Shown here one piece after another: positions 18,487 through 32,837 of a stretch of DNA of 64,000 nt. How positions within the stretch are numbered: position 1 is the stretch's first letter; the number at the start of each line of letters is the position of its first letter. Source of the stretch: Gammaproteobacteria bacterium. GTDB lineage: Bacteria > Pseudomonadota > Gammaproteobacteria > Steroidobacterales > Woeseiaceae. The notes beneath the pieces were generated by a model, which searched no databases, was not told the DNA's origin, and worked only from the letters and a program-made list of their open reading frames with translations. The position numbers and the translations under genes were made by a program. The stretch lies in the NCBI GenBank assembly GCA_009937525.1, contig JAACFE010000003.1:1-64000 (forward strand), given 5' to 3'.

Positions 18487-19112
18487 AATGCCTCCGCCGT
18501 TGCCGGCATGGTCAGGATTTTCTCGCGGTGAGCGTCGAAGTATAACAACGTCTCGCGGATCGCTTTGATGACGGCGCGCGGCGTCACCGAGGCACCCGTA
18601 AGCTGATCGAACTCGCCGCCATCGACCTGCAGGTGCCAGCCCGCGACCGGCGGGTCGCCGAGCGATCGGCTATCGAACTGGTGGACCCAGTCGGAACGCG
18701 ATGCCTCGATGCCGTCGCCGAGCCCGGGCGTCTCGCGGTGTTCGAGTATCCGTACACCGGTGATCGTGCCGGCCGCGCCGATGCCCACCAGGACACGAAT
18801 CGGGCCCGCGTAGCCGCCTTTCGCCGTGACAGCGAACAGCGCGGCAGCCGGTGCGCCGCCGGAATACACCCGGTAGATGATGACGGCATCGTCGCCGGGC
18901 AGGTCGTGAGGAGGCTCCAGAACGAGTTTCGCGGCCGTGATGCTGCCGTCGTAGTCCAGGCCCCCGAGCGCGGGTTCCAGGCTTTTCTCGAGCCAGGCCT
19001 GTTCGTTCGCGGCGATGCGCGCCGCGGTCAGGTGGTTCGTTGCTGCGACCAGCGTCGCGCAGATCGCGGCGATCGTTGCGAGCGTAATGCCGCGTATCGT
19101 GATTCCCGGCAT
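18483..19112 (-). CDS. rnfG: Rnf complex subunit G (FMN-binding)
   Basis: A 209-residue subunit with one N-terminal transmembrane helix (about 8-28) and a periplasmic FMN-binding domain. The covalent-FMN motif appears as TGASVT at 172-177, a variant of S-G-A-T-x-T. The final Thr177 would carry the FMN phosphoester. The GLGDGIEA strand is typical. The start overlaps the rnfD stop by one base. Confidence 0.93.
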   Translation of the reverse strand: MPGITIRGITLATIAAICATLVAATNHLTAARIAANEQAWLEKSLEPALGGLDYDGSITAAKLVLEPPHDLPGDDAVIIYRVYSGGAPAAALFAVTAKGGYAGPIRVLVGIGAAGTITGVRILEHRETPGLGDGIEASRSDWVHQFDSRSLGDPPVAGWHLQVDGGEFDQLTGASVTPRAVIKAIRETLLYFDAHREKILTMPATAEAL

Positions 19113-20164
19113 CACGGCGCCCCCGCATCCCTGCGGTGCCCGACAATGCGCGGCCGGGTGATGCGGTCGATGGCCGGGACCGCCATGTTCATCATCAGCA
19201 CGGCGAAGGCGACGCCGTCGACGTCCGCGCCCCAGGTCCGTATCGCGTAGATCAGGAAGCCGATGCCGGCGCCGTAGATAAGGCGGCCCTTCGGGCTGGC
19301 CGCGGCGGACACCGGATCGGTGGCGATAAAGAACGCGCACATCAGCGCCGCGCCGCTGAACATGTGGAAGCCGGGGCTCGGTTCCGTTCCCGGACTGGCG
19401 AGCCACATGATGCCGGCCGGAATCAGGAGGCCAACGCCCACGCCGACCGGGATGTGCCAGCGGATGACCCTGCGGATCATCAGCCAGAAGCCGCCGATGG
19501 CGATGAAATTGCCGATCCATTCCCAGCCGACGCCGCCAAAGTCGCCCATGATCGGCAGGGAACGGATCTCTACCGTCGTGCGCATGTCATTCAGGCCGGA
19601 CTTCATGGCGTCCAGCGGCGTGGCCCGACTGATCTCGTCGTAGGTCAGCGCATCCGGGAGACTCCCGGTCAGCGTGTAGGTCAGGGTCTGCAGAACGGAC
19701 AGGAACTGGTAGTCGATGTCGCCCATGCGCGGCGCGACCCAGAGGTTCAGGTGCATGGGGAAGGCGACGAGCACGACGACGTAGCCGGCCATCGCCGGGT
19801 TGAAGATATTGAAACCGAGGCCGCCGTAAAGGTGCTTGGCAACAATGATGCCGAACAACGCCCCGGTGGCCGTCACCCACCACGGCGTCAGCGACGGCAG
19901 CGCAAAGGCCAGCAGTGCCGCGGTCACCAGCGCGCTGTAATCGGACAGGGCGCGCACGGGCGGGCGGCCGCGCAGCCGCATCATGAGCGCTTCGCCGCCC
20001 ACGCATGCCGCCGTGGCGATGAGCAGGTTGAAGATCAGGCCCGGGCCGAAGAACCACACGTGCGCGACGGCCGCCGGTACGAGCGCGAGCAGAACCTGCT
20101 GCATCATTGTCGCAACGTCGGCAGTTGGTGCCATGTGAGGCGCTTCGCGGTGCTCGAATTCCAC
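19112..20164 (-). CDS. rnfD: Rnf complex subunit D
   Basis: A 350-residue NqrB/RnfD-type membrane subunit with about nine or ten helices. It starts in the family's usual way (short amphipathic N-terminus, then MMQQVLLALVPAAVAHVWFFG). The covalent FMN site is SRATPL with Thr182. GGLGFNIFNPAMAGYV and DPVSAAASPKGRLIYG are further signatures. It is probably the ion-translocating subunit with RnfA/E. Confidence 0.95.
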   Translation of the reverse strand: MEFEHREAPHMAPTADVATMMQQVLLALVPAAVAHVWFFGPGLIFNLLIATAACVGGEALMMRLRGRPPVRALSDYSALVTAALLAFALPSLTPWWVTATGALFGIIVAKHLYGGLGFNIFNPAMAGYVVVLVAFPMHLNLWVAPRMGDIDYQFLSVLQTLTYTLTGSLPDALTYDEISRATPLDAMKSGLNDMRTTVEIRSLPIMGDFGGVGWEWIGNFIAIGGFWLMIRRVIRWHIPVGVGVGLLIPAGIMWLASPGTEPSPGFHMFSGAALMCAFFIATDPVSAAASPKGRLIYGAGIGFLIYAIRTWGADVDGVAFAVLMMNMAVPAIDRITRPRIVGHRRDAGAP

Positions 20165-20166
20165 GA

Positions 20167-21687
20167 TCAGTCCCCGTCGTCCCGTCGTCGGCGTTTCATG
20201 ATTTCCGCAATGGCGTCGGGGCCGGCCTTCCTGGCCTGGTCCTTTTGCCGGGCCAGTTCGACCTCGCGCTCGCGCTGTTCACGCTGCAGGCGTTCGTTAC
20301 GCGCCTCGAAGCGACGCCGGGCACGTTCGGCGCGGGCTTTTTCGTCGTCCAGTTCCCGGATGCGCGCCTTCGCCATGCGGAAGTCGTAGGTCAGCGGAAT
20401 ATGGCTCGGGCAAACGAGATCGCAACATCCGCACTCGATACAGTCCGTCAGACCGTGGTCTCGCAGCTGCGTCTCGTCGTCCGCGCAGGCGTACCAGAAG
20501 AGCTGCTGTGGCAGGAGCCGCACGGGGCACACGGCCGCGCAATCGCCGCAACGGATGCACGGCAGTTCGGGGCCGGCCGCAGGCACGTCCGACATCACCA
20601 GTATGCAGTTGGTCGCCTTGACCAGCGGGACCCGGTCGGTGCTGACCGACTTTCCGGTCATCGGCCCGCCGATAACAAGGTGCCTCGCGCTCTTGGTATA
20701 GCCGCCGGCGAATCGTGCGATGTCGTCGATCGTCGTGCCGATACGCGCCCTGACGTTCATCGGATTCGCGATGCCGTCTCCGGTAATCGTCGTGATTCGT
20801 GAAATCAGCGGTTCGCGATTGTTCAGCCAGTCGTGTATCGCGACAGCCGTGCCCACGTTTTGCACCAGGCAGCCAATATCCGTTGGCAGCCCGCCGCTCG
20901 GCACTTCCCGGTTGGTCACGAGCTGCACCAGCTGGTCCTCGCCACCCGAGGGATAGATGGTCGGAATCTGCTTGAGTGAGAGCCGCTCGTCGCCGACTTC
21001 GGTCATGGCAGTGGCGAGCTGCTGGATCGCCTCGGGCTTGTCGCTTTCGACGACGATGAACGCATGGTCGAGTTCCAGTGCGCGCAGGAGAATCTGCGCG
21101 CCACCCACCACATCGTGCGCCCGTTCGCGCATCAGCATGTCGTCGCAGCTGATGTAGGGTTCGCACTCGGCACCGTTGAGAATGATGTAGTCGAGATCGC
21201 AGGAAACCGCCTGCATGAGTTTCTGCGCAGTCGGGTAGACTGCGCCGCCGAGACCGACGATGCCGCCCTGGAGGATCTTCCGCAGCACCGTGTCTCCCGG
21301 CAGTTCGGCATACGGTATGGGTTCCTCCCACGACTCCACCGCCTGGTCATCGCCGTCGCATTCGATCACGATGCAGGGCGCCGTGTCGCCACGACGCCCT
21401 GCCACCGGCCAGGGCCCGATGGCAACGACCTTCCCGGAGGAAGAAGCGTGCACCGGTGCGCCCAGCGTTCCCGGTGATTCTGCGAGCAGCTGGCCTTTCA
21501 GCACGCGTTCGCCGATGCCGACGAGTGGCTGGGCCGGGTCGCCGACGTGCTGTTCGAGTGGCAGGACCAGCTGATCCGGCAGCGGCGGTGACTGTATTGG
21601 CAGTCCGGTCGCCTGCGACTTGCGAGCGTCCAGGCGCAGTCCGCCGTGCAGTTTGCCGAGGTCGTATGTCGCCGCGGCGCCAGGCAC
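20167..21687 (-). CDS. rnfC: Rnf complex subunit C
   Basis: A 506-residue peripheral subunit that binds NADH and FMN (GGIVGLGGAVYPTAQKL; NGAECEPYISCDD) and carries two [4Fe-4S] clusters (CIRCGDCAAVCP and CIECGCCDLVCP). The C-terminus is a charged, Arg/Glu-rich coiled-coil tail of about 60 residues. The start is the GTG at 21687, which overlaps the rnfB TAG. It is the electron-input end of the complex. Confidence 0.94.
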   Translation of the reverse strand: MPGAAATYDLGKLHGGLRLDARKSQATGLPIQSPPLPDQLVLPLEQHVGDPAQPLVGIGERVLKGQLLAESPGTLGAPVHASSSGKVVAIGPWPVAGRRGDTAPCIVIECDGDDQAVESWEEPIPYAELPGDTVLRKILQGGIVGLGGAVYPTAQKLMQAVSCDLDYIILNGAECEPYISCDDMLMRERAHDVVGGAQILLRALELDHAFIVVESDKPEAIQQLATAMTEVGDERLSLKQIPTIYPSGGEDQLVQLVTNREVPSGGLPTDIGCLVQNVGTAVAIHDWLNNREPLISRITTITGDGIANPMNVRARIGTTIDDIARFAGGYTKSARHLVIGGPMTGKSVSTDRVPLVKATNCILVMSDVPAAGPELPCIRCGDCAAVCPVRLLPQQLFWYACADDETQLRDHGLTDCIECGCCDLVCPSHIPLTYDFRMAKARIRELDDEKARAERARRRFEARNERLQREQREREVELARQKDQARKAGPDAIAEIMKRRRRDDGD

Positions 21688-22172
21688 TATGCCGCCCGCA
21701 TGCTTATACAGTCGACCGGGCAGGGCGCCAGGCACAGCTCGCAGCCGGTGCACTCCTGTTCGATGACCGTGTGCATCAGCTGGTGGGTCCCGACGATGGC
21801 GTCGACCGGGCACGCGGCGCGGCAATACGTGCAGCCGATGCACAGCGATTCGTCGATGACCGCGACGGCGGGTGCCGCCGGACCCGTCGCGAGCGGGGGC
21901 GCTTCGCTGCGGCCGAGCAGTTCGGCGAGGCGCCGCACGGTGTCGTTGCCTCCGGGCGGGCAGAGATTGATTGCTTCCCGGTTCGTGACGATTGCCGCGG
22001 CATAAGGCCGGCAGCCCGGGTATCCGCACTGCGCGCACTGGGTCTGCGGCAGGAGGTCATTGACGCGCTCGACGAGTCCCGAGCTGTCGGATGGCAACTT
22101 GCGGGCAGCGAAGCCCAGGCCGAGGCCGGCGATCAGCGCGATGACTGTCAGGGTCAGTATGGCAATCCACAT
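21687..22172 (-). CDS. rnfB: Rnf complex subunit B
   Basis: A 161-residue subunit: N-terminal membrane anchor (about 1-23), a four-Cys cluster motif CAQCGYPGC plus a later Cys, then two bacterial-ferredoxin [4Fe-4S] motifs (CIGCTYCRAACP and CTGCELCLAPCP). It is shorter than clostridial RnfB and matches gammaproteobacterial RsxB. It relays electrons between ferredoxin and the membrane subunits. Confidence 0.95.
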   Translation of the reverse strand: MWIAILTLTVIALIAGLGLGFAARKLPSDSSGLVERVNDLLPQTQCAQCGYPGCRPYAAAIVTNREAINLCPPGGNDTVRRLAELLGRSEAPPLATGPAAPAVAVIDESLCIGCTYCRAACPVDAIVGTHQLMHTVIEQECTGCELCLAPCPVDCISMRAA

Positions 22173-22187
22173 ACGGACTCACGGCGC

Positions 22188-22769
22188 TCAGAGCCGTGCC
22201 ATGCCGGAGAATCCCATGAATGCCAGCGACATCATGCCGGCGGTCATCAGCGCGATGGCGGGACCGCGGAACGGCACCGGAACGTCGGCTGCTTCGAGGC
22301 GTTCACGAATCGCGGCGAACATGATCAGGACGAGCGCGAAGCCGCCCGCCGCACCGAGCCCGTAGAAGACCGATTGCACGAAGCCCGTCGACTGCTGGAC
22401 GTTGAGCAATGCCACGCCGAGCACGGCACAGTTGGTTGCAATCAGCGGGATATAGATGCCCAGGACCTGGTCCAGCAGGGGACTGAGGCGGCGCACCATG
22501 ATCTCGGTGAATTGGACGCTGGCCGCGATCACCAGGATGAAGGTAATCGTCCTCAGGTAACCGAGTTCCAGGGGCACCAGGACGTAGGCGTGCAGCAGGT
22601 AGGCCGTCGCGGACGACAACGTCAGAACGAACGCCGTCGCGAGCGACATCCCCGTGGCGGCCTCGAGGTTTCGCGAAACGCCCATGAACGGGCACAGGCC
22701 GAGAAAACGCACGAGTACGAAGTTGTTGACCAGCACCGTGGCAACGAGGATGACGAACAGTTCAGTCAT
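22188..22769 (-). CDS. rnfA: Rnf complex subunit A
   Basis: A 193-residue six-helix membrane subunit with [21 protein letters not shown] near the N-terminus and [14 protein letters not shown], the two Cys-bearing motifs facing RnfE. It is the first gene of the rnfABCDGE-nth-DUF1841 run. metG lies immediately upstream on the same strand with 35 bp between, so the operon may extend back to metG. Confidence 0.95.
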
Positions 22770-22804: not shown

Positions 22805-24808
22805 CTACTTGACCCGCATACCCGGCTTCGCCCCATCGTCCGCCGACAACAGGAAGATATCTTCTCCGCCGGGTCCCGCAGCCAACACCATACCCTCGGA
22901 TACGCCGAAACGCATCTTGCGCGGCGCGAGGTTGGCGACGACGACGACGTGCCGCCCGACCAGGCTGTCCGGCTCGTACGCGGCTTTGATGCCGGCGAAT
23001 ACGCTGCGCGTCGAGTCGCCGAGATCCAGCGTCAGGGCCAGCAGTTTGTCAGCGCCTTCGACCGGCTCCGCCTTCTCGATACGCGCGATCCGCAGATCGA
23101 CCTTCATGAAATCGTCGATGCTTATCGTGTCGTCCCGTTCAGCGGGCGCCGCATCATGAGTTTCCTTCGACTGTTCAACCATGCGTTGCACCTGTTCGGG
23201 CTCTATGCGCTTTAGCAAAGGAGTGAATTTATTGAACGTCGCATCCAGCAATGGCACCGACGCGTCCGTCCAGCGCCATTCGTCCTCGCCGAGGAATTTC
23301 TTCGCGCCGTCGGCTACCGCGGGTAACACGGGCGAGAGGTAGACCATCAGGCTGCGGAACATGTTGAGTCCCTGCGTGCAGACGAGTTGCACGTCGTCCA
23401 GCTGATCTTCGTCCTTGATCATCACCCAGGGCTTCTTTTCGTCGATATAGCGGTTAGCCTTGTCGGCGAGGGCCATGATCAAACGCATCGCCTTGGAGTA
23501 TTCGCGGCGCTCGTAGTGTCCCGCCAGGGTTTCTGATACGGCTGCGAACTCATCGAACAGTGTCTCGTCGGCAAGAACACCGGACAATCGCCCGTCGAAT
23601 CGCTTGCTGACGAAACCGGCGCAGCGGCTCGCAATATTGACGAGCTTGCCGATGAGGTCCGCGTTTACGCGGGCGATGAAATCGTCCAGGTTCAGATCGA
23701 TGTCTTCGATCGTCGGGCCGAGTTTCGCGGCGTAGTAATACCTGAGGTGACTGGGATCGAGATTGTCGAGGTAGGCACGCGCCTTGATGAATGTGCCGCG
23801 GGATTTCGACATCTTCAGCCCGTTCACGGTCAGGAAACCGTGCGCAAACACACTGGTCGGCGTCCTGAAGCCCGAACCTTCGAGCACGGCCGGCCAGAAC
23901 AGCATGTGGAAATACATGATGTCCTTGCCGATGAAGTGATACACCTCGGTGTCGTGCCCGGGACGCCAGTATTCGTCGAAGTCGAGATCGGTTCTGCGCT
24001 CGCAAAGATTGCGGAAACTCGCGGGATATCCGACCGGCGCATCCAGCCAGACATAGAAGTACTTGTCCTCGGTGCCCGGGATGCGAAAGCCGAAATAGGG
24101 CGCATCGCGGGAGATGTCCCAGTCCTGCAGTCCGGCTTCGAACCATTCGTCGAGCTTGGCGACCGCGTTCCTGTCGAGCGTTGCCGACTTCATCCAGGCT
24201 CGCAGCCGCTCCTCGTACTCGCTCAGCCGGAAGAAGTAATGCTCCGACTCGCGTTTCACCGGCGTCGTGCCGGATATCACCGAGACGGGATCGATCAGAT
24301 CGGACGGCGTGTAGGTCTTGCTGCAGTTCTCGCAGGCATCGCCGTACTGGTCCGGCGTCTTGCAGAAAGGGCAGGTTCCGCGCACGAAACGATCGGGAAG
24401 GAACATGCCTTCCTTCTCGTCGTAGGCCTGCTCGATCGTCTTCGTATAGATATCACCGGCTTCCCGGAGCGCCTCGAACATCTCTACCGTCAGCGCCTCG
24501 TTCTCTGGTGAGTGCGTGGTGTGGTAGTTGTCGAAATCGACACCGAATGCGGCGAAGTCTCTGACAAACTCCTCGCTGAACGACGTCGTGAGGTCCTCCG
24601 GCGTTATGCCCAGCTCGCGCGCCTTGATCATGATCGGCGTGCCGTGAGCATCGCTGGCGCATACGTAGGTGCAGGTGTGGCCGCGCAGTTTCTGGAAACG
24701 CACCCAGATATCCGTCTGGATGTACTCCACGAGATGCCCCATGTGAATGGAGCCGTTGGCGTACGGCAGGGCGCTCGTAACGAGGATTTTTCGGGGCGCG
24801 TCGCTCAT
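22805..24808 (-). CDS. metG: methionyl-tRNA synthetase
   Basis: A 667-residue class I synthetase. HIGH is HMGH in [16 protein letters not shown] is intact ([10 protein letters not shown]), the knuckle Cys pairs are CPFC and CENC, and the C-terminal appended tRNA-binding domain (about 565-667; [16 protein letters not shown]) is present, as in the longer dimeric E. coli form. Upstream lies the repeat-filled gap 24809-25089; a CATAAT box (24822-24817) could give a very short leader. Confidence 0.97.
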
Positions 24809-24840: not shown

Positions 24841-25081
24841 GAGCCCGGTCTGCGGCGTTTGCGACAGTCGGGATCGGGCGGGCTGCGGCGACGATTTTTC
24901 TCGTCATGGCTCCCTTCGGTCCGCTTTACTTCCTCGAAAAACATCGCCGGCAGCCCGCCCCGGTTGGCGCTGCCGACATGCGCACCGCCAATATCCGGTG
25001 AGCCCGGTTCGGGGTGTTTGTCGACGAGGCCTGAAGCGAGCGTAGCGAGCAGCCCGTCGACAAATACCGCAGACCGGGCTC
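24841..25081. repeat. composite repeat bounded by 15-bp inverted ends
   Basis: GAGCCCGGTCTGCGG at 24841-24855 is repeated exactly inverted at 25067-25081. A third, degenerate copy (GAGCCCGGTTCGGGG) starts at 25000. Inside are the 85-bp module (24876-24960) and a hairpin with perfect 10-bp arms TTTGTCGACG (25017-25026) and CGTCGACAAA (25055-25064) around a GCGAGCGTAGCGAGC core. It fills the gap between a pilT-like gene and metG, so it probably sits in the metG upstream region. No protein is encoded. MITE-like ancestry is inference. Confidence 0.6.
24876..24960 (+). repeat. 85-bp hairpin module, copy A
   Basis: Identical at 84 of 85 positions to the inverted copy at 32044-32128. Its ends are inverted repeats, GGGCGGGCTGCGGCGA against TCGCCGGCAGCCCGCCC, and the pairing continues inward (CGATTTTTCTCG against CGAAAAACATCG), so the whole unit can fold into one long hairpin. 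The loop region contains an ATG that would read MAPFGPLYFLEKHRRQPA, but the frame continues differently in the two copies, so this is not treated as a gene. Confidence 0.75.
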
Positions 25082-25089
25082 GTGCGGCC

Positions 25090-26148
25090 TCAATCCTCGT
25101 TTTTCATTCTTTGGAACTTGGACTTGTCGTTGGCCTGCTGGTAGGCGTCCCGGCCGGCGATCAGGCCCTGGCTGACGAGGTCCATGAGCGCCGAGTCCAT
25201 GGTCTGCATGCCGACGCCGCCGCCCGACTGCATCGCGGTCTCGAGCTGGTCGAGCTTGCCCTGGCGGATCAGGTTGGCGACAGCCGGCGTGTTGATGAGG
25301 ATCTCCAGTGCCGCGACGCGGCCGGCGTGCTGCTTCGTCGGCAAGAGCTGCTGGGAAATGACTCCCCGCAGCGAAGTCGAGATCATCGTGCGGATGTGAC
25401 TCTGCTTGTCGGCCGGGAAGGAATTCACGATGCGGTCGACGGTCTGTCCGGCGCCGTTGGTGTGCAGGGTCCCCATGACGAGGATACCCATCTCCGCGGC
25501 CGTCACAGCGATGCTGATGGTTTCGAGGTCGCGCATTTCACCGACGAGCACGACGTCGGGATCTTCGCGCAACGCGGAGTGCAGGGCTTCCGCAAAGCTC
25601 GGGCTGTGGACGCCGATTTCCCGCTGGCTGATCAGGCAGCCCTGGGCCTTGTGAACGAACTCCACCGGATCCTCGATCGTCAGGATATGGCCTTTCAGCC
25701 GCTTGTTCATCGCATCGATGATGGCGGCGAGCGTCGTCGATTTGCCGGAGCCCGTCTTGCCGGTAACCAGGATCATTCCCTGGGTGTGCCGGCAAAGGTC
25801 GTGGATGACCTTCGGCATGTTCAGGTCGGCAAGCGTCAACGCCTGTGACGGAATCGCACGGAAGATCGCGCCGATCCCGTTCAGGTGCCGGAAAACGTTG
25901 ACGCGGAAGCGCGAGACATCAGGGATCTCGTAGGCGAAGTCGGCGGCATCGTACTGTTCGAAGGCACGCTGGGTCGTGCCGTCCATGATCTCGAGCACGC
26001 ATTCCCTGACGGTGTCGGTCGTCAGGGATTCATTCTCGATAACCTGCAGGTCGCCGTGAATTCGTGCCCGCACCGGGTCTCCGGATACGAAGTGCAGATC
26101 GGATGCGTTGCGCTGCAGTGCAGACGTCAGGTACTGGTCGATCTTCAT
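25090..26148 (-). CDS. PilT-family twitching ATPase
   Basis: A 352-residue hexameric secretion ATPase of the PilT/PilU retraction group. Walker A is GKTGSGKST (about 130-138), the Asp box is LTIEDPVEFVH, Walker B is GEMRDLETI, and the His box is GTLHTNGAGQTVDRI. It would power type IV pilus retraction at the inner membrane. The start overlaps the stop of the upstream paralogue (TGATG). No pilin or pilus assembly gene is in this window. Confidence 0.92.
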   Translation of the reverse strand: MKIDQYLTSALQRNASDLHFVSGDPVRARIHGDLQVIENESLTTDTVRECVLEIMDGTTQRAFEQYDAADFAYEIPDVSRFRVNVFRHLNGIGAIFRAIPSQALTLADLNMPKVIHDLCRHTQGMILVTGKTGSGKSTTLAAIIDAMNKRLKGHILTIEDPVEFVHKAQGCLISQREIGVHSPSFAEALHSALREDPDVVLVGEMRDLETISIAVTAAEMGILVMGTLHTNGAGQTVDRIVNSFPADKQSHIRTMISTSLRGVISQQLLPTKQHAGRVAALEILINTPAVANLIRQGKLDQLETAMQSGGGVGMQTMDSALMDLVSQGLIAGRDAYQQANDKSKFQRMKNED

Positions 26149-27362: not shown

Positions 27363-29813
27363 TCAGACGCGGACGGTGTCGAGCGCGTCGGTGAGTTCCG
27401 GCATGGACTGGTAGCGTTTGGTCTTGTCGACCGACATGGCCTTGTTGATGATGGCTGCGAATTCGTCCGGAATATTCGGGTTGATTTCCTGGCAGGGCCT
27501 GGCCTTGCCCTGGACGTGCTGGTACATCACCGACATGTGGTCGCCGCGGCTGTACGGCGGTATGCCCGTCGCCATTTCATACATGATCACGCCGATACTG
27601 TATATGTCGGCCGTTTCGTCGACTTTCTTGCCGAGGATCTGCTCCGGCGCCATGTATTTCGGCGAGCCGATGACATAGCCCGTCTTCGTCAACTGGGTGT
27701 CGCCACTCGCGGCAGCCGCGGCGACGCCAAAGTCCACGATCTTCAGCAGTCCCTCGTTGTTCACGAGCACGTTGGCGGGCTTGAGGTCGCGGTGGATGAC
27801 GCCGGCCTGGTGCGCGACCGACATGCCGGTCGCCATGTCGCGCGAGAATCGGAGTAGCTTCTTGATTTCCATGGGCTTGTTGTCCGGGATTTCTCCCGAC
27901 AGCGTGTGCGAAGGGAAATACTCCATGGATATCGCGTAAGAGCCCTGCAGATTCAGGAAGTCGTAGATTCGAATGATGTTGCGATGCGTGATCTTGCGCG
28001 AGTACCGCAACTCATGCACGAATCGCTTCATCATCTCTTCGTCCGACGAGACGTTGGGGTTCAGGAACTTGAGGATGAGCCTCTCGTCGACGACCTCGTC
28101 ATGCATCAGCAATACCGTACCGAAGGCGCCCTTGCCGATTTTCTCAATGTACTTGTAGCGGCCGTCGATGACGTCCCCGGGTTTGAGCTTCGAGATGTCG
28201 AGCGGCAGCGTCCCGGGGAGGGGCGGCGGATGACCTTCTACCGTGGTCGTATCCAGCGATGCGGCCGCCGTGCGCGCCTTGGCCTGCTCGTCGAGCAGCT
28301 TCTCGAGATCCTTGTCGTCGAGCAGCAGGGTGCGCGTCTGGTCGCCGATCTTCCCGGCGCGGACGTTCTCGGCCAGCATCGTTGCGGAGAAGCGCGCGTC
28401 GAGATCCTTGAGCGCCTTGTCCGCGATATTGATAACCGTCGGTTCTTCGGCCTGCTTGATCTTCTGCAGAACCGTACGAACCGTATCGGCATGCGTTTCG
28501 TCGGCCAGCTTGGACAGCGCCTTGACGGCTTCAATCTGCAGCTCGCGCTCGGGACTCTTCAGTAACGGCACGATCATCGGGATGTGCCTGTGGTCACCGA
28601 GTTTCGCCAGAGCGCGTACGACGACAGGGTCCGTCTTGGCGTCCTTGCCGAGCATTGCCTCCAGCTTCGGCAGTGCCTTCGGGTTGCCGATCTTCGACAG
28701 GGCATCCACGGCGCGCTCGCGCACCCACCAGTCCGAGTCTTCGGTGGCCGCGAGCAGGTGGTCGACGGCACGTTCGTCCTTCGTGGCGTTGAGAATCTCG
28801 ATCGCCGTGCGGCGAATCTCTTCGTCTTCGTCATTGATGAGCGCGACGACGGAATCGACGACCCTGGGACCGCCGATTTCCGCGAGCGCGTCGCCGGCAC
28901 GCGAACGCACCCACCAGTCGTCGTCCTTGAGGACTTCCAGCAGCTCCTTCACGGAATTGACGTTACCGACCTCGTTGAGAACCTCGACCGCGGCCCGGCG
29001 CGAATATTCGGATTCGTCCTTGAGCGCGTCTGCGAGGTACTTGATCGTCTCGGGGTGGTTGATCTGGATCATCATGTCGACGGCTTTGTTCTGTACGTCG
29101 AGATCCGGGTCCTGTAGCAGCTTCGCGACGGCCGCGATGTTGACGTTGCTGCCACGCGAGGCGAGGGCGCTCAGCGCCGCTCCCCGTACCATCTTGTTGG
29201 TGTCTCTCAGTTCGACCTCGAGTGCAGCGTTGATATCCGGGCTGTCGAACTTCTTGAGCAGGTTGATGAGATGGATCTTTATGACCGGATCCCGGCCGCC
29301 CATGCGCGCGATCAGATCCGGAACCATCTCGGGTCGGATCATGCGTTCGATTATCCTGAAGACGGCTGCTTTTTCCTTGACGTCGAGATCGTAGGCGCGC
29401 TGCAGCAGTTCGTGCACGCTGAGGTCTTCCTTGTGAACCTGCAGAATCTCGATCAGGGCAGGTTTCGAGACTTCGTCATCCTCGAACCAGTCCAGGAGCT
29501 GGTTGACGTTGTAGTCGGTTGTGCTGCTCAGGGCCCAGGCAGTGCCTTTGACGACGCGTTCGTTGCCGTCGGCAAGCCCTTCGCGATAGTAGTCGAGGGT
29601 CTTGTCGCTGACGAGCGCAGAGAGAATGTCCACGAATACCATCGTATGCGACTTGTCGGACATCGCGAGCGCGTCGATGACCTTGGGGATGACCTTCGGC
29701 CCGATCTTCTTGATCTTGCTCACGAGACGGCGAGCGCCCGAACCGGTCGGATCCTTCTCGGCGACCAGCTGCTGGATCAACTGTTCGGAGCGAAACGACC
29801 CGAGGAGGCTCAT
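27363..29813 (-). CDS. HEAT-repeat Ser/Thr protein kinase
   Basis: An 816-residue soluble fusion. Residues about 20-480 are successive HEAT/PBS-lyase-type helical repeats (recurring WWVRxRAxDALxxIG units near 300 and 362). About 481-550 is a linker, and 553-816 is a Hanks-type kinase with glycine loop IGKGAFGTV (559-567), Lys582, HRDLKPANV (674-682), DFG (694-696) and APE (722-724); all catalytic residues are intact. There is no transmembrane helix. It sits first in a run with two PilT-type ATPases, so control of twitching by phosphorylation is a plausible role. Confidence 0.9.
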   Translation of the reverse strand: MSLLGSFRSEQLIQQLVAEKDPTGSGARRLVSKIKKIGPKVIPKVIDALAMSDKSHTMVFVDILSALVSDKTLDYYREGLADGNERVVKGTAWALSSTTDYNVNQLLDWFEDDEVSKPALIEILQVHKEDLSVHELLQRAYDLDVKEKAAVFRIIERMIRPEMVPDLIARMGGRDPVIKIHLINLLKKFDSPDINAALEVELRDTNKMVRGAALSALASRGSNVNIAAVAKLLQDPDLDVQNKAVDMMIQINHPETIKYLADALKDESEYSRRAAVEVLNEVGNVNSVKELLEVLKDDDWWVRSRAGDALAEIGGPRVVDSVVALINDEDEEIRRTAIEILNATKDERAVDHLLAATEDSDWWVRERAVDALSKIGNPKALPKLEAMLGKDAKTDPVVVRALAKLGDHRHIPMIVPLLKSPERELQIEAVKALSKLADETHADTVRTVLQKIKQAEEPTVINIADKALKDLDARFSATMLAENVRAGKIGDQTRTLLLDDKDLEKLLDEQAKARTAAASLDTTTVEGHPPPLPGTLPLDISKLKPGDVIDGRYKYIEKIGKGAFGTVLLMHDEVVDERLILKFLNPNVSSDEEMMKRFVHELRYSRKITHRNIIRIYDFLNLQGSYAISMEYFPSHTLSGEIPDNKPMEIKKLLRFSRDMATGMSVAHQAGVIHRDLKPANVLVNNEGLLKIVDFGVAAAAASGDTQLTKTGYVIGSPKYMAPEQILGKKVDETADIYSIGVIMYEMATGIPPYSRGDHMSVMYQHVQGKARPCQEINPNIPDEFAAIINKAMSVDKTKRYQSMPELTDALDTVRV

Positions 29814-31268: not shown

Positions 31269-31835
31269 GTGAGCATCAAGTCGGACCGCTGGATTCGCCG
31301 CATGGCGGCCGAACACGGCATGATCGAGCCCTTCGAGCCCGGCCAGGTTCGCGAGAACGAACAGGGCCGTATCGTCTCTTACGGCACCTCGAGTTACGGC
31401 TACGACGTGCGTTGTTCCAACGAATTCAAGATCTTCACGAACATCAATTCTGCAATCGTGGACCCGAAGGGTTTCGACGAGACCAGTTTCGTCGACCTCG
31501 AGAGCGACGTCTGCGTAATACCGCCGAATTCCTTTGCCCTGGCGCGCACCGTGGAGTATTTCCGCATCCCGAGGACCGTGCTGACGATCTGCCTTGGGAA
31601 ATCGACTTACGCGCGCTGCGGCATCATCGTCAACGTGACGCCGCTCGAGCCGGAATGGGAAGGGCACGTCACCCTGGAGTTCTCCAACACCACGCCACTG
31701 CCCGCAAAGATCTATGCCAACGAGGGCGTCGCCCAGATGCTGTTCCTGGAGTCCGACGAGCCCTGCGAGACCTCGTACAAGGACCGTGGCGGCAAATACC
31801 AGGGCCAGACCGGCGTCACCCTCCCCAAGGCCTGA
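31269..31835 (+). CDS. dcd: dCTP deaminase
   Basis: A 188-residue trimeric enzyme that converts dCTP to dUTP and ammonia for dTTP synthesis. It has [16 protein letters not shown] near 45, the catalytic Glu in [16 protein letters not shown], and a C-terminal nucleotide-binding tail ending [10 protein letters not shown]. It starts with GTG, five bases after the mrp stop, so mrp-dcd is an operon. The longer family form without dUTPase activity is the likely type. Confidence 0.96.
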
Positions 31836-31895: not shown

Positions 31896-32022
31896 GTCAG
31901 GCGAACGGAGCATTTGTCTCCCAAAGCTGTAGGAGCGTGCCTCGGCGCGCGATTCGGCCCAACGAATGTTCGCGGTTCGAGAACCGCTCCTACAGATCGA
32001 CAAACGCCCCGGCTCGCCTGAC
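31896..32022. repeat. REP-like three-hairpin cluster within larger inverted repeat
   Basis: Outer arms 31896-31918 and 31999-32022 begin GTCAGGCGA and end TCGCCTGAC, and meet as TTTGTC/GACAAA. Inside, CTGTAGGAGCG (31927-31937) pairs exactly with CGCTCCTACAG (31985-31995). Between these lie small hairpins, including ATTCG/CGAAT and a perfect GCGGTTC-GA-GAACCGC. The TGTAGGAGCG head and GGCGCGCGA body recur at 46297. It lies between convergent dcd and purN and could act as a two-way transcription barrier. Confidence 0.7.
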
Positions 32023-32043: not shown

Positions 32044-32128
32044 GGGCGGGCTGCCGGCGATGTTTTTCGAGGAAGTAAAGCGGACCGAAGGGAGCCATGA
32101 CGAGAAAAATCGTCGCCGCAGACCGCCC
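32044..32128 (-). repeat. 85-bp hairpin module, copy B
   Basis: Reverse-complement copy of 24876-24960, differing at one base. As in copy A, the module is followed at a short distance by a hairpin whose arms contain TTTGTC/GACAAA (here 31896-32022), so the order module-spacer-hairpin is conserved while the sequence of the hairpin is not. It sits between the ends of dcd and purN. Confidence 0.75.
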
Positions 32129-32180: not shown

Positions 32181-32837
32181 TCAGAGGTCGAAATCGAGGA
32201 CGACGGGTTCGTCGAGGCGTTCGCCGTCGAGCCAGGTAGCGCCGTCCTGCATGCGGATCCGGCCCGAGCCGAACCAGTCCGCGGCGGTGGGGTAGATCTG
32301 GTGTTCGATGGCCTGGACCCGCCGCATCAGGTCATCGGGGTCCGTCGTGGGGGCGACCCGAATTCTTCCCTGCACGATACGCGGACCTCCGTCGAGTTCC
32401 TCGGTGACGAAGTGCACGGTGCTGCCGTGGTGTGTATCGCCGGCGTCGAGAACGCGTTCATGGGTATTCAGGCCCGGGTAGCGCGGCAGCAGGGCCGGGT
32501 GGATATTGAGAATTCGACCTTCATAATGCCGCACGAACCAGGGGCTCAATATGCGCATGAATCCAGCGAGCACAATCAGCTCCGGTTCCCAGGGAGCCAG
32601 TGCTGCGGTGACGGCACGATCGAATTGCTCCCGGGTATCGAAGCGGCCGTGTTCGATGCATTTCGTTTCGACGCCCGCGTCACGGGCCCGCGTCAAGCCG
32701 TAGGCATCCGGCCGGTTCGAGAATACGCCGCAGAGGTCGATCGACATCGATCCCCGTGCAACACGGTCGATGAATGACTGCAGGTTGGTGCCGGAGCCCG
32801 AAATCAGGATCGCCGTTTTGCAGGTTCCTGAACTCAA
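32181..32837 (-). CDS. purN: phosphoribosylglycinamide formyltransferase
   Basis: A 218-residue enzyme that transfers formyl from 10-formyl-THF to GAR, the third step of purine synthesis. It has [11 protein letters not shown] at the N-terminus, the catalytic region [12 protein letters not shown] (Asn and His), and [17 protein letters not shown] with the catalytic Asp. The only sensible start is a TTG at 32837 that overlaps the purM stop as TTGA, so translation is probably coupled to purM. Confidence 0.95.

Follow-up and report, generated by a model that had tools for sequence, protein, structure and literature searches.

The REP palindromes so far known in bacteria are associated with Y1 enzymes, and their recognition takes place largely at the hairpin feet. 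MITEs, for example ERIC and NEMIS, are short, non-autonomous, intergenic inverted-repeat elements with a patchy distribution between relatives, and the attC sites of integrons are long hairpins folded from a single strand that lie behind genes and have unpaired central bases, a variable tip and conserved R boxes at their ends. Protein-bound RNAs typically have a conserved internal loop flanked by two helices of variable sequence. Table 1 of PMC3733652 gives REP stems of 5-13 bp and loops of 2-20 nt, and passages of PMC3116915 describe REPINs as elements of constant length with compensatory changes in a variable middle. Here we compare with these systems a hairpin found twice in a 64,000-nt stretch of a Woeseiaceae genome (the window, that is, the whole stretch of DNA that was analysed).

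Two inverted copies in the window

Copy A (24876..24960, core strand minus), a match to covariance model R1, lies in the gap between a metG-like gene (22805..24808, minus) and a pilU-like gene (25090..26148, minus). Copy B (32044..32128, plus) is located between convergent dcd-like (31269..31835, plus) and purN-like (32181..32837, minus) genes. All four genes were named by eye, metG from its translation. The 29-nt conserved loop of each copy, hereafter the core (24904..24932, minus, in A; 32072..32100, plus, in B), matches the pattern GAAGTAAAGCGSASCGNAGSGAGCCATGA with 0 mismatches. Elsewhere in the window, we observed an 816-aa reading frame that resembles, as judged by eye, a fusion of HEAT-type repeats with a serine/threonine kinase (27363-29813), adjoining pilT/pilU-like genes, and an apparent rnfABCD-type gene run, also named by eye (19112-22769).

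The first-pass annotation had described A and B as inverted copies of one hairpin with flanks far less conserved. Sequence comparison confirmed that they are identical at 84 of 85 positions (1 difference) and that their flanks are unrelated; off-diagonal BLASTN within the window returned one strong match of 92 bp at 96.7% identity. Each copy forms one hairpin that is far more stable than its shuffles. The 85-mer of A folds at -46.6 kcal/mol on the minus strand (z -5.6) and at -40.3 kcal/mol on the plus strand (z -4.6), and none of 200 shuffles folded as well on either strand. The end repeats of 16-17 bp reported previously understate the stem, which is 28 bp long with a bulge and a few mismatches.

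Both copies had also been said to be followed by a hairpin with TTTGTC/GACAAA arms. Such hairpins are real beside A and B, but they are not alike. The partner of A (25000..25081, plus) is of a second type with loop TGAAGCGAGCGTAGCGAGC and stands tail-to-tail with A. The partner of B (31897..32021, minus) belongs to the same family as B and has lost its loop; its arms (31897-31918 and 31999-32021) are shared with an intact relative in locus L066, and at the loop position stands a REPIN-like element, GTAGGAGCG...CGCTCCTAC (31929..31993, no strand assigned). By our reading of one stem pair, B of L066 has T-A where B of the window and L144 have a G.A mismatch and A of the window has G-C, and A and B are therefore nearly identical through recent copying or exchange inside a single subfamily.

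Family spread and hairpin anatomy

A genome-wide search with covariance model R1 revealed a dispersed family with 34 copies in the source genome, and copies were found in relatives as well, which excludes the case of two copies only and none in relatives. BLASTN of the module against its own genome (3.0 Mb, 167 contigs) gave 24 matches at E < 3e-4, at least one of which (L024) resembles coding sequence rather than the element, and the core pattern with up to 3 mismatches occurred at 23 places vs 0 for the reversed control. A core scan of 84,980 species genomes yielded at least 110 stretches; the MAG labels among the matches listed were Woeseiaceae, unclassified Gammaproteobacteria or Proteobacteria, two Coxiellaceae and one Myxococcota, a spread that would by itself put the window in Woeseiaceae or close to it. 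R1 detected 1-34 copies in each of the 19 genus genomes sampled (19/19) and 59 in a genome of another family (G020), and no copies in ten other genomes of the order. In a sample of the class, 4 of 369 genomes matched R1: two of the source genus, one with 7 matches and one with a single weak match. A looser loop pattern matched 31 of 398 genomes of the phylum, with more than 2 matches only in the source genome (27) and G082 (6); as judged from the matches listed, the others occur at a rate like that of the reversed-pattern control. No match to the element was found in virus, phage and plasmid collections. The family is present in every genome sampled from the genus and rare elsewhere. Searches covering more than 40 genomes used stricter filters, and some of the genomes sampled are the same MAGs as individually named loci, with copies collapsed by identical sequence.

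Across 149 distinct copies, stem pairing remained high to offset 27 and was at chance by offset 29-30, so that the unit measures 28 + 29 + 28 = 85 nt. Most copies have this length; their 29-nt loop is almost invariant, and the 28-bp stem that closes it is nearly free in sequence. In a gapless alignment (A1) of 72 copies, hand-picked from 98 with a filter of at least 18 standard pairs out of 28, 87.4% of the pairs were standard and changes on both sides occurred at 28 of the 28 stem pairs. The covariation score was 0.777 vs 0.205 for shuffled alignments and 0.126-0.151 with partners slid, the filter inflating pairing and not the slid controls. An origin of the stem by insertion into older palindromes was rejected, as pairing stops at offset 28. 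Peptide coding was also rejected, as the stems vary freely; by our own reading, the core has a stop in 2 of its 3 forward frames.

Within the loop, pair 14-20 alternates between G-C and C-G around a GNA triloop, and stem-adjacent positions, where not Watson-Crick, often form tandem G.A/A.G. Among 201 distinct copies the tip measured 7 nt in 177 and 17-28 nt in 21, counted with a pattern that misses some longer tips. Variants in G007 (17 copies) and G082 carry longer helices of unrelated sequence instead of the small tip. These longer-tipped variants show what is actually conserved: an asymmetric internal loop with a variable helix at either end, whose two sides, TAAAGCGSA and GAGCCAT, are near-constant. 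We also observed that the tips of L177 and L285 consist of an A-run, a GC hairpin and a T-run, like a two-way intrinsic terminator, and that two hairpins are chimeric (L274 near 1501; L144, 389-480), the arms of two element types being joined via the shared core.

Stem mismatches were biased to one strand. A filter counting only Watson-Crick pairs retained 107 of 149 copies; in these, the core strand contained, at offsets 5-25, 188 G.T or T.G vs 23 A.C or C.A mismatches, and 43 G.A or A.G vs 13 T.C or C.T. This bias indicates that the core strand is under selection, in the form of RNA or of single-stranded DNA. The earlier proposal that near identity at a distance meant recent copying or selection is supported, since we see copying as well as a strong constraint on how one strand folds.

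Genomic setting, presence/absence and rival explanations

We placed 210 copies relative to genes called with a codon-score script of our own; 12 overlapped a called gene, 29 had no usable neighbour, and the 169 classified copies comprised 87 in convergent, 73 in co-directional and 9 in divergent gaps. All gaps of at least 100 bp in the same loci, occupied ones included, numbered 101, 170 and 77, respectively. A suggested role as an inserted attenuator is not supported, as the copies lie behind genes and not ahead of them. Of 152 copies facing a gene 3' end, 105 were at most 40 nt away from it. Within this group, 77 were antisense to that gene and 28 sense (p = 1.9e-6, approximate since the copy sets of 149, 210, 203 and 201 overlap and contain orthologues). 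This mostly antisense orientation is unlike what a signal needed in the nearest gene's own mRNA would show. No T-run follows the element (T 19-25% at the 16 positions after it), a feature expected of intrinsic terminators, and Rfam gave nothing above gathering score, the only sub-threshold match over the element reaching 22.3 of 80 bits (E 0.63).

Furthermore, 25 of 27 adjacent copy pairs were arranged tail-to-tail, the arrangement seen in the window for both A (with 25000-25081) and B (with 31897-32021). Among 194 contexts, a strong-hairpin partner stood on the 5' side in 44 and on the 3' side in 13, vs 7 in shuffled controls. In G005, the tail-to-tail double with its 60-nt spacer is itself a recurring unit; a short tandem repeat (~20 nt unit) was observed beside one double unit of this genome (L210, 340-420).

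Occupation of the same site differs between relatives. The pilU-like/metG gap was occupied in 3 of the 11 same-genus genomes read, with different stems each time, and the non-occupied gaps were short and plain. At this site in L144, a chimeric second-type/first-type hairpin replaces A. An element follows purN in 2 of 10 loci read (of 19). At the B site, a 140-bp stretch comprising B, the spacer and one partner arm is inverted relative to L066 at 97.1% identity, the flanks being direct (82.7 and 86.0% identical); the same stretch is inverted relative to L144 at 91.2%, with a left flank at 91.6%. Comparison of L116 with L143 and of L087 with L139 suggests plain insertion. Of 19 matches listed from a search with joined flanks, the majority were trivial or so diverged that the ends could not be placed exactly, and no clean empty site with base-exact ends was found, the relatives being too diverged.

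In 203 contexts and at 100 end offsets, no consistent target duplication was detected; the best 5-mer signal was 3/203, and a 4-mer signal of 8/203 (0.5 expected) occurred at one non-palindromic offset only. The same contexts revealed no target motif or end consensus (at most 0.09 bit at any of 32 flanking positions), and the terminal repeat sequence was not conserved (at most 0.30 bit at the outer six positions of each arm). The idea of a MITE-like element comes close in habit, the element being dispersed and non-autonomous with same-site presence and absence in relatives, but neither a consistent duplication nor conserved terminal repeats were found, and no matching transposase turned up near copies.

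Elements of IS110 type and REPIN-like elements have in turn landed repeatedly in the loop of the element. An IS110-family element of G005 (L277, 16-954, minus; PF02371, 1.3e-19; PF01548, 1.5e-16) interrupts the loop at the contig ends C10, C44, C9, C5, C32 (both) and C36, with contig-end landings recorded in loci L210, L211, L212, L215, L216 and L281. A second IS end interrupts other G005 copies at a nearby loop position (C34, C9; L213, L281). In the source genome, the REPIN-like element at 31929-31993 has one counterpart within a family loop, in L013.

The main rival to a mobile hairpin is a structured RNA working at the 3' ends of genes, although we consider it unlikely. The core strand, transcribed by read-through coming from the facing side, would fold before the transcript enters the nearest gene antisense and, with a bound protein, would stop or process it, doubles guarding both convergent genes. 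The antisense excess close to gene 3' ends (77/105), the tail-to-tail doubles that supply each convergent gene with such a hairpin, the position of the conserved internal loop between two variable helices and the terminator-like tips of 2 of 17 G007 copies all speak for it. However, 28 of the 105 copies are sense, the T-run and an Rfam match over gathering score are absent, most congeners have the same gaps without the element, and copy number ranges from 1 to 34 within one genus. Stems could also be kept paired with little selection if, mainly through quasipalindrome template switching, one arm corrected the other as the DNA is replicated. Between copies that differ at 5-8 stem positions there were 40 double Watson-Crick changes (transversions in 18), 8 changes from pair to mismatch and 19 to G.T, as such correction would produce, and chimeric hairpins show exchange within cores. 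Yet arm correction predicts no strand bias, and both G.T/A.C and G.A/T.C are biased to one strand, which weakens this reading; the loop is also nearly invariant though pairing is not needed there. We thus judge it improbable.

It is equally hard to credit that these hairpins are REPs in a degenerate or extreme form, mobilised by a Y1/RAYT transposase since lost from the source genome. The habitat of REPs described in passages of PMC3733652 and PMC3116915, namely 3' ends, convergent gaps and inverted dimers, is shared by the element, REPIN-like GTAG elements occur in the same genome, and a Y1 gene was found in 14 of the 29 genomes searched, with no relation to element copy number by eye. Nevertheless, the foot tag is absent, the stem measures 28 bp and the loop 29 nt, and the ends are not conserved. 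Moreover, no Y1 transposase was detected at E<=0.001 in the source genome (assembly 95.6% complete), where the GTAG elements thus occur without a detected Y1/RAYT gene, and none in G001, G007 and G012, despite 34, 14, 17 and 13 copies, respectively. None of the 12 Y1 loci fetched carried the element; the one locus with nearby repeats (L270) has GTAGGAGCG repeats. No recurring mobile gene was found among 631 proteins near elements in 163 loci, the protein clusters listed being housekeeping genes by eye. The 375-aa reading frame in the 1485-bp stretch between two hairpins of L203 was rejected as a candidate, being unlike a transposase by eye.

We consider it just probable that A and B belong to a dispersed, REP-like hairpin family that is non-autonomous and whose folded strand would be read by an enzyme encoded elsewhere. 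Covariation at all 28 stem pairs, strand bias, same-site presence and absence, tail-to-tail doubles and accumulation at 3' ends favor this interpretation. Against it, neither a Y1 gene in the source genome, nor the element at a Y1 locus, nor a recurring mobile gene near copies was found, and the joined-flank search gave no clean empty site. The constraint on the fold could also act on RNA, and vertical descent with stem drift could account in part for the same gaps being filled repeatedly. As for the mechanism of movement, we infer that the folded core strand, as single-stranded DNA, would be the substrate of a trans-acting enzyme reading the internal loop, that copies would persist where they are least harmful, behind genes, and that the stem sequence would be free because only length and pairing matter.

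Comparison with known systems

The literature search found nothing for the string GCGCAGCGAAGCGAGCC and nothing containing both 'Woeseiaceae' and 'palindromic repeat', and hits to 11-12-mers of the element were unrelated by title. It is conceivable, if doubtful, that the family represents a class of mobile hairpins with no description in the literature searched, in which a folded single DNA strand is recognised via a conserved asymmetric internal loop, flanked by two helices free to vary, and copied to gene 3' ends by an enzyme other than Y1/HUH, with neither duplication nor target motif. The family supplies hundreds of covarying hairpins as a natural data set. Its stem is free, its inner loop invariant and its position antisense behind genes, which raises the questions of which protein reads the loop and how the stem is rewritten pairwise.

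REP/BIME sequences with their RAYTs are like the element in being dispersed palindromes with one folded strand that lie behind genes and in convergent gaps, form inverted dimers and serve as targets of IS110-type elements. Passages of PMC3733652, PMC3116915 and PMC8266576 describe a REP/REPIN habitat and dimer order that resemble those of the element, and PMC1525189 reports that IS110-type insertion sequences target REPs. In contrast, REPs carry a GTAG or CGTC tag at the hairpin foot that is lacking in the 203 contexts of the element, whose 28-bp stem and 29-nt conserved loop are outside the REP range, and a REP flanks its cognate RAYT, whereas here none was found in cis and none was detected in the source genome. 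REPINs are about the same size, form one long hairpin of constant length and show compensatory changes; however, they have conserved ends and a variable centre, and the element is the inverse, with a conserved centre and variable ends. The habit of MITEs is shared, but the arm sequence of the element is not conserved, consistent duplication is lacking, and a parent transposon was not found near copies. The likeness to attC sites extends to the folded hairpin, unpaired centre, variable tip and position behind genes, although the ends of the element are free and have no R boxes. Since the tag, the short stem, the conserved ends and the RAYT all fail, we file the element as a variant of dispersed palindromic repeat and not as a REP, and the family as a whole suggests a small hairpin, mobile or bound by protein, of a kind as yet undescribed.
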